The translations under genes and the position numbers were made by a program. Shown here in pieces: positions 1-517 of a stretch of DNA of 63,913 nt (positions within the stretch are counted from its first letter, which is position 1; each line of letters opens with the position of its first letter). The notes under the pieces are model-generated. The model had not been told where the DNA came from. It ran no database searches and was given only the letters and a program-made list of their open reading frames with translations. Origin of the DNA: Oscillospiraceae bacterium (GTDB taxonomy: Bacteria; Bacillota; Clostridia; Oscillospirales; CAG-272); assembly GCA_015065215.1 (NCBI GenBank), contig SVQT01000005.1, positions 1-63,913 of the forward strand. The letters are read 5' to 3'.

Positions 1-78
1 GGTGCAAACCGCATTGAATGCGAGAGCGCATGACTGTTAATCATGATGTCGCTGGTTCAAGCCCAGCAGGGGGAGCCA
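1..78 (+). tRNA. tRNA-Asn(GTT), 5' end outside window, with a hairpin insert in the D-loop
   Basis: Anticodon arm CATGACTGTTAATCATG, T arm GCTGGTTCAAGCCCAGC, acceptor 3' strand AGGGGGA plus G and CCA at 76-78. The expected 5' acceptor/D-stem would precede base 1; GGT at 1-3 is followed by a non-tRNA insert (about 4-22) containing CGCATT-G-AATGCG. Confidence 0.8.
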
Positions 79-79
79 A

Positions 80-200
80 CAAAAAGAAAAAATATCGCTT
101 ATGCACCTTTAGCTCAGTTGGTAGAGCAACTGACTCTTAATCAGTGGGTCCCGGGTTCGAATCCCTGAAGGTGCACCATAAGCGATATTTTTTCTTTTTG
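80..200. repeat. 23-bp perfect inverted repeats (80-102 / 178-200) flanking the intact tRNA-Lys
   Basis: CAAAAAGAAAAAATATCGCTTAT at 80-102 and its exact reverse complement ATAAGCGATATTTTTTCTTTTTG at 178-200. Confidence 0.95.
103..178 (+). tRNA. tRNA-Lys(CTT)
   Basis: Complete cloverleaf: GCACCTT acceptor, D arm AGCTCAGTTGGTAGAGC, anticodon loop CTCTTAA, GGTTCGAATCC T-loop, AAGGTGC, encoded ACCA. Confidence 0.97.
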
Positions 201-227
201 CTCTCTTTGCTTCGGGCTTGAACCACA

Positions 228-278: not shown

Positions 279-323
279 CCAAACGCGAAGCGTTTGGGCA
301 CAAGCATCCAGCAGGGGGAGCCA
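279..323 (+). pseudogene. tRNA-Asn 3' remnant (T-stem 3' strand, acceptor, CCA) preceded by a hairpin
   Basis: CCAGCAGGGGGAGCCA at 308-323 is identical to 63-78 of the tRNA-Asn. Hairpin CCAAACGC-GAA-GCGTTTGG at 279-297 lies just upstream. Confidence 0.75.
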
Positions 324-351: not shown

Positions 352-517
352 GCACCTTTATGCCCACCCACCAGCCCGCACTGCGGTCTGGTATGAAGAA
401 TGCTAAAGCATTCTTCAAGTTGGTGCCAAGCAGAGCTTGGCCGAGCAACTAAGACTCACACCGTCGGCTTTGCCGACGGGCATCAGTGGGTCCCGGGGCA
501 AGCCGTATGCGGCTTGC
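352..517 (+). pseudogene. tRNA-Lys pseudogene split by multiple short hairpin inserts
   Basis: Collinear tRNA-Lys blocks GCACCTTTA (352-360), GTTGGT (419-424), GAGCAACT (443-450), GACTC (453-457), ATCAGTGGGTCCCGGG (482-497), interrupted by hairpins at 370-392, 394-417, 425-441, 461-479 and 498-517. Confidence 0.85.

Follow-up and report, generated by a model that had tools for sequence, protein, structure and literature searches.

How does a copy of a tRNA gene come to be split by five hairpins that have almost no sequence in common, and what kind of process could produce them? The question is raised by the beginning of a 63,913-nucleotide stretch of DNA from an Oscillospiraceae bacterium, here called the window, which starts at the end of contig C33 in a genome (G000) of 2.14 Mb and 85 contigs. 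Blocks of tRNA-Lys (GCACCTTTA, GTTGGT, GAGCAACT and ATCAGTGGGTCCCGGG) follow each other there in gene order with the five hairpins between them (Table 1). A preliminary description had reported this arrangement, and all blocks and hairpins are found where it placed them, the blocks matching the intact tRNA-Lys gene nearby. It had described all five hairpins as perfect, which is true of four, and A2 is correctly located but has an AA loop in place of the TAAA loop assigned to it. The dismembered gene is not the working tRNA-Lys; the intact gene ends 174 bp before the start of the broken one, and the affected copy is a spare. This copy is truncated past the T-loop hairpin and lacks the 3' end, which, together with the adjacent intact gene, argues against a tRNA intron or a split tRNA. 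Since all intact tRNA-Lys(CUU) genes found in the genus are free of hairpins, it is spare copies that are affected. The interrupted tRNA-Asn copy at the start of the window also has an intact counterpart, located on contig C44 of the same genome. In other species, the spacers flanking the intact tRNA-Lys have a different sequence and are again complementary (e.g., loci L078 and L089).

Table 1. Features at the start of the window (a dot marks features given without a strand).
Feature	Positions	Strand	Description and basis
tRNA-Asn(GTT) copy	1..78	+	cut by contig end; D-loop insert of about 20 nt, GGT-gcaaaccgcattgaatgc-GAGAGC; Rfam tRNA, 27.9 bits with the insertion
Left arm of perfect 21-bp stem around intact tRNA-Lys	81..101	+	exact reverse complement of 179-199; direct reading
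Intact tRNA-Lys(CTT), template of the broken copy	103..178	+	ARAGORN; Rfam, 69.4 bits
Right arm of 21-bp stem	179..199	+	direct reading
Inverted tRNA-Asn T-arm fragment	214..225	-	GGGCTTGAACCA, reverse complement of TGGTTCAAGCCC
Perfect hairpin	279..297	.	CCAAACGC-GAA-GCGTTTGG; hairpin scan of the window
tRNA-Asn 3' end, direct copy	308..323	+	CCAGCAGGGGGAGCCA; direct reading; same piece in relatives
Dismembered tRNA-Lys(CUU) copy	352..517	+	tRNA blocks 1-9, 15-20, 22-29 and 38-53; alignment to intact tRNA-Lys
Hairpin A1	370..392	.	one C.T mismatch
Hairpin A2	394..417	.	perfect; 11 bp paired, AA loop
Hairpin B, D-loop	425..441	.	GCCAAGC-AGA-GCTTGGC; perfect; different sequence in other genomes, still pairs
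Hairpin C, anticodon loop	461..479	.	CCGTCGGC-TTT-GCCGACGG; perfect
Hairpin D, T-loop	498..517	.	GCAAGCCG-TATG-CGGCTTGC; perfect

The dismembered copy contains four perfect hairpins (arms of at least 7 nt, loops of 1 to 6 nt) in 166 bp, compared with about 0.3 per kb in shuffled window sequence. Its folding energy with DNA parameters is -51.2 kcal/mol, whereas shuffled versions reach -27.1 +/- 2.8 kcal/mol (z -8.5), and with RNA parameters the z-score is -6.9. The hairpins interrupt the tRNA-Lys sequence at nucleotides 14/15 (start of the D-loop), 19-21 (D-loop), 34-38 (anticodon loop) and 53-57 (T-loop), and relatives carry additional hairpins at 48/49, 62-65 (T-stem) and 72-73 (3' end). The sites in the D-loop, anticodon loop and T-loop correspond to the loops of inverted repeats within the gene itself, and the D-loop hairpin position falls in the loop of the best palindrome of the intact gene (TCAGTTG-GTAGAG-CAACTGA, 114-133). 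It is thus fair to say, as was proposed, that the hairpins mostly sit at tRNA loops; however, the preference, which is based on seven positions and is not significant alone, is only suggestive. Hairpins of a similar kind are present away from tRNA loops as well, namely in spacers, within inverted copies of tRNAs located behind terminators, and in arrays with TGAAAT between the hairpins.

A DNA search gave matches in 10 of the 21 genomes of the genus. When 120 genomes of the family were searched, matches were limited to this genus, and phage records gave no match. Eight species besides that of the window (G002, G004, G008 with four copies, G009, G010, G011, G014 and G019) carry homologous hairpin-bearing tRNA-Lys copies with hairpins at common tRNA positions, and further partial copies are present in G012 and G013. 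The carriers, which include Oscillospiraceae SIG629 and SIG702 and Clostridia RGIG1736 from goat cecum, belong to a little-known genus of ruminant-gut bacteria. Several of the tRNA-Lys copies are clustered with 5S rRNA, tRNA-Asn and tRNA-Lys genes; the number of hairpins per copy ranges from two to about nine, and some copies are truncated. Contigs often terminate in or close to the hairpin arrays, which is what an assembly or binning artefact might produce, and the arrays may account for the assembly breaks at tRNA clusters. However, similar structures occur in many genomes that were assembled separately by different projects. The tabulation of hairpins by tRNA coordinate in other genomes, which had been suggested as a check, reveals homologous copies with shared positions and thereby excludes an artefact as the source of the locus; the probability left for this explanation is negligible. 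The phenomenon is real, clade-specific and unusual. In the 97%-complete genome G010 (locus L085), a dismembered tRNA-Lys(CTT) copy lies at two contig starts; an intact copy was not found, and the array coincides with contig breaks in this genome.

The wider sample consisted of tRNA neighbourhoods and one 320-kb contig. Beside many of the other tRNA genes of the genus lie additional hairpins and pieces of the respective gene, in inverted or direct orientation. With Lys-CTT and Asn left out, direct tRNA 12-mers occur in 13.6% of flanks compared with 3.1% in the control, which consists of the flanks of other tRNAs, and inverted 12-mers occur in 8.9% compared with 0.8%; in outgroups of the order, the values are 2.6% and 5.1%, respectively. 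The inverted pieces are frequently located directly after the terminator, where they mirror the tRNA 3' end, with a 33-bp perfect palindrome at Arg-acg. In front of some tRNA genes, fold-backs of the first 20 nt of the gene are found: upstream of tRNA-Lys in G012 and G017, GCACCTTTAGCTCATGTCGG-ACCA-CCAACTGAGCCAAAG consists of the tRNA 5' end and, after it, the reverse complement of this end, and similar arrangements exist for Asn and Leu-tag. When chains of dismembered copies were searched for automatically outside tRNA-Lys, clear cases were few (17 own-flank chains, mostly Lys, compared with 4.3 in the control). The density of hairpins 70-500 bp downstream of tRNA genes is 3.66 per kb, compared with 1.57 in outgroups of the order and 0.48 in shuffled sequence, and non-terminator hairpins remote from tRNA genes reach about 1.0 per kb of non-coding DNA on contig C10 of G002. 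The idea that hairpins are everywhere in intergenic DNA is contradicted by this contig and by the window. The array hairpins form a class distinct from the local terminators: loops of 2-3 nt are present in 76% of non-terminator hairpins and in 15% of terminators, and a GC..GC apex is found in 45% of the former and in 6% of the terminators of the same genes, 64% of which have 4-nt loops.

Downstream of several tRNA genes, at a distance of about 150-350 bp, there are direct copies of tRNA 3' ends. Together with the excess of direct 12-mers, these copies could be remnants, decorated later, of integrative elements with tRNA 3' ends as their attachment sites. However, the spacing is too short for a gene-bearing element, and hairpins and inverted copies would be left unexplained; such an origin is very improbable. 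Mobile hairpin elements that depend on an enzyme for their insertion, a mechanism proposed for REPs, mitochondrial hairpin elements and Rickettsia palindromes, have a somewhat better, though still small, chance. Some stems do recur in different tRNA neighbourhoods, with 16 hairpin pairs sharing a 7-bp inner stem where 1.5 are expected; however, many of these recurrences lie in the same tRNA cluster of related genomes, and the 147 distinct stems are otherwise near-uniform in composition and near-random past the apex. The statement that the arms do not belong to one repeat family thus stands: stem sequence is mostly unshared, and a tight loop and the GC..GC apex are the sole common traits. A Y1 transposase (PF01797) gave no match in seven array-bearing genomes (G000, G002, G004, G009, G010, G011 and G019), all of which are incomplete. 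The parallel drawn with Rickettsia-type palindromic elements found no backing, and there was no sign of a REP/RAYT system either.

The comparison of species and of tandem copies shows how the stems change. The stems at a given position of tRNA-Lys vary between species, sometimes wholly, and yet they pair: 292 of 303 pairs are Watson-Crick, five are G.T, two are A.C and four are other combinations, although the slot alignments behind this count were anchored at the apex by hand and therefore overstate the proportion of pairs. In a small sample of other hairpins, nine G.T and seven A.C pairs were counted. Perfect stems are in excess over mismatched stems, and the arms are complementary in the way template-switch products are. 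Two tandem copies of G008, a and b, are near-identical outside the hairpins, with linkers matching at 94 of 101 positions; however, one hairpin on the T-loop side appears to have been swapped entirely, reading TTGACGG-CTTG-CTGTCAA in one copy and CAACGAC-CAAG-GTCGTTG in the other, with an inverted loop and intact pairing. The 3'-end hairpin has been re-armed with only its core kept and still pairs, and two more hairpins differ in several pairs, on both sides. In G019, copies b and c, which lie about 226 bp apart, are near-identical except for a pair of 3'-end hairpins of about 55 nt that is present in b and absent from c. As this hairpin pair is common to G008, G009 and G019, copy c and a two-hairpin copy of G002 were not used as proof of insertion; they had been considered as insertion intermediates and were dropped, as they may be recombinants with an intact tRNA.

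The main rival to fold-back synthesis, which is set out below, is a maintained structured RNA (or a structured DNA site) derived from tRNA-Lys, in which the hairpins are selected for structure and the linkers for sequence. It holds this place because the foreign arms hide the first step of fold-back synthesis and because linkers, including derived ones, persist between species. Hairpins occur at the same positions in many species, and linkers are better conserved than arms, with 70 of 76 positions identical between G002 and G010 compared with 18 of 26 in the arms. Derived linkers (e.g., AAGACTCACAC) are common to species with only about 72-79% coding-DNA identity; this persistence suggests constraint or ongoing exchange within arrays. 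Furthermore, outer helices (AGTTG/CAACT and GACTCAC/GTGGGTC) surround hairpins B and C in the minimum-energy fold of the window copy, and most pairs covary. Covariation, however, is expected of structured RNA and of template switching alike. The tRNA helices in the window copy, in G011 and in copy a of G019 have decayed without compensation, the 303 aligned pairs include few G.U pairs, and the variable number of hairpins and the truncation of some copies are likewise difficult to reconcile with a maintained RNA. Beyond tRNA and 5S, no Rfam family reaches the cut-off at the locus, where a scan was also run at a relaxed threshold. A maintained RNA is regarded as possible but doubtful.

The reading that we prefer, with a probability of about 0.48, is that the spare tRNA copies were made by local duplication and that fold-back (template-switch) DNA synthesis generates their hairpins, keeps them perfect and rewrites them. 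The duplication, both direct and inverted, would yield the spare copies seen in the 5S-tRNA cluster. In single-stranded DNA, a growing 3' end would then fold onto its own strand at the apex of a short palindrome (typically GC-N2-3-GC), copy this strand for about 7-30 nt and return, leaving a perfect stem of any sequence. Repeated rounds could generate unrelated, perfectly paired stems, the whole-stem replacement at fixed positions and loop inversion described above, and the mirrored tRNA ends. tRNA genes would be favoured targets as they are sets of inverted repeats and highly transcribed, and selection would remove broken working copies, thereby keeping working copies intact. While the duplicates, the perfect pairing and tight-loop apex of their hairpins, the jump-like turnover and the mirrored ends can be read from the DNA directly, we infer the action of the polymerase, the contribution of transcription and the neutrality of the copies. 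An arm that pre-exists in the parent sequence is seen for the mirrored tRNA ends; within the tRNA-Lys copies, the hairpins have two arms foreign to the tRNA, and neither the origin of the first arm nor, accordingly, the first step of the mechanism is seen there. Moreover, the derived linkers outlast what is expected of neutral sequence, which counts against neutral copies. The proposal that a process generates hairpins remains the most economical reading of the locus; however, the five hairpins are not five recent deposits, as their positions are inherited across species while their sequences turn over.

We consider it unlikely that the genus has a clade-specific hairpin generator, in the form of a DNA-copying activity, either dedicated or unusually prone to error, by which hairpins are written at palindrome apices in tRNA and rRNA regions. 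A simple loss of hairpin cleavage does not explain the restriction of the hairpins to one clade, as SbcD is found in most genomes; loss of SbcD as the cause was rejected because G000 has it. A match to sbcD over the family cut-off is absent in several genomes (e.g., G002, G004, G010, G014 and G019), some of which carry arrays, and the correlation is not clean.

Template switching can create and maintain hairpins (PMC8794818), and quasi-palindromes are described as mutation hotspots in Escherichia coli (PMC7202029). According to a yeast study, RNA-DNA hybrids in highly transcribed DNA promote quasi-palindrome mutations (PMC3820800); high transcription of the tRNA and rRNA clusters could be a cause of the hairpin location. 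The arrays resemble the products of such mutagenesis in that their stems are perfect, are extended and apparently change by compensatory jumps of several bases and by inversion of the loop, with the palindrome apex as the switch point. However, quasi-palindrome mutagenesis has been described as single mutation events or in RNA-gene evolution, whereas here many hairpins accumulate beside the tRNA genes of one genus, and the array hairpins have loops of 2-3 nt while 4-nt loops are the enriched class in template-switch hairpins (PMC8794818). In mitochondrial genes of Nematomorpha, inverted repeats have nearly always perfect arms, for which arm conversion was suggested and template switching proposed; these share arm perfection with the arrays but measure up to 284 bp and lie in animal protein genes (PMC6649704). 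The short repetitive hairpin elements of sponge mitochondria are similarly placed, in spacers and inside an rRNA gene, and have conserved stems and variable loops (PMC2800124), whereas the arrays vary in their stems as well. Palindromes of 20-40 bp beside genes are also known as REP/BIME elements (PMC3733652) and from families of stem-loop repeats (PMC2267715); however, REP/RAYT systems comprise a conserved high-copy palindrome family, in contrast to the diverse stems of the arrays. None of the five window hairpins has the GTAG/CGTC motif of REP stems at an unpaired foot, and no RAYT-type transposase was found in the genome of the window. Rickettsia palindromic elements are one sequence family inserted in the coding frames of genes; they share with the arrays the presence of palindromes inside genes, but the arrays consist of unrelated stems in a tRNA copy rather than in-frame insertions into ORFs. 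No bacterial tRNA-gene arrays of this kind were found in the open-access literature searched. The arrays are best seen, with moderate confidence in the mechanism, as a new form of template-switch hairpin evolution that is concentrated in spare tRNA copies.

Compensatory changes in perfect stems are normally taken to prove that an RNA structure is under selection. In this genus, next to intact tRNA genes, the stems of seemingly dispensable copies are exchanged while pairing is kept, and covarying hairpins in such clades should not automatically be regarded as functional RNAs. The genus could show whether fold-back copying at the DNA level alone makes and maintains hairpins, and paralogous copies within genomes and species at graded distances make this question directly testable. 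Three further arrangements were observed near other tRNA genes. Short arrays of tight-loop hairpins with TGAAAT or GTGAAAT separators lie behind terminators at L007 (480-690) and at L023, downstream of tRNA-Tyr. At L025 and L046, tandem units consisting of the tRNA 5' end and its own reverse complement run into the intact tRNA-Asn and tRNA-Leu(tag) genes, respectively. At L041 and L043, direct copies of nucleotides 1-39 of tRNA-Leu(cag) and tRNA-Arg(cct), which end in the anticodon loop, are located 120-178 bp upstream of the genes.
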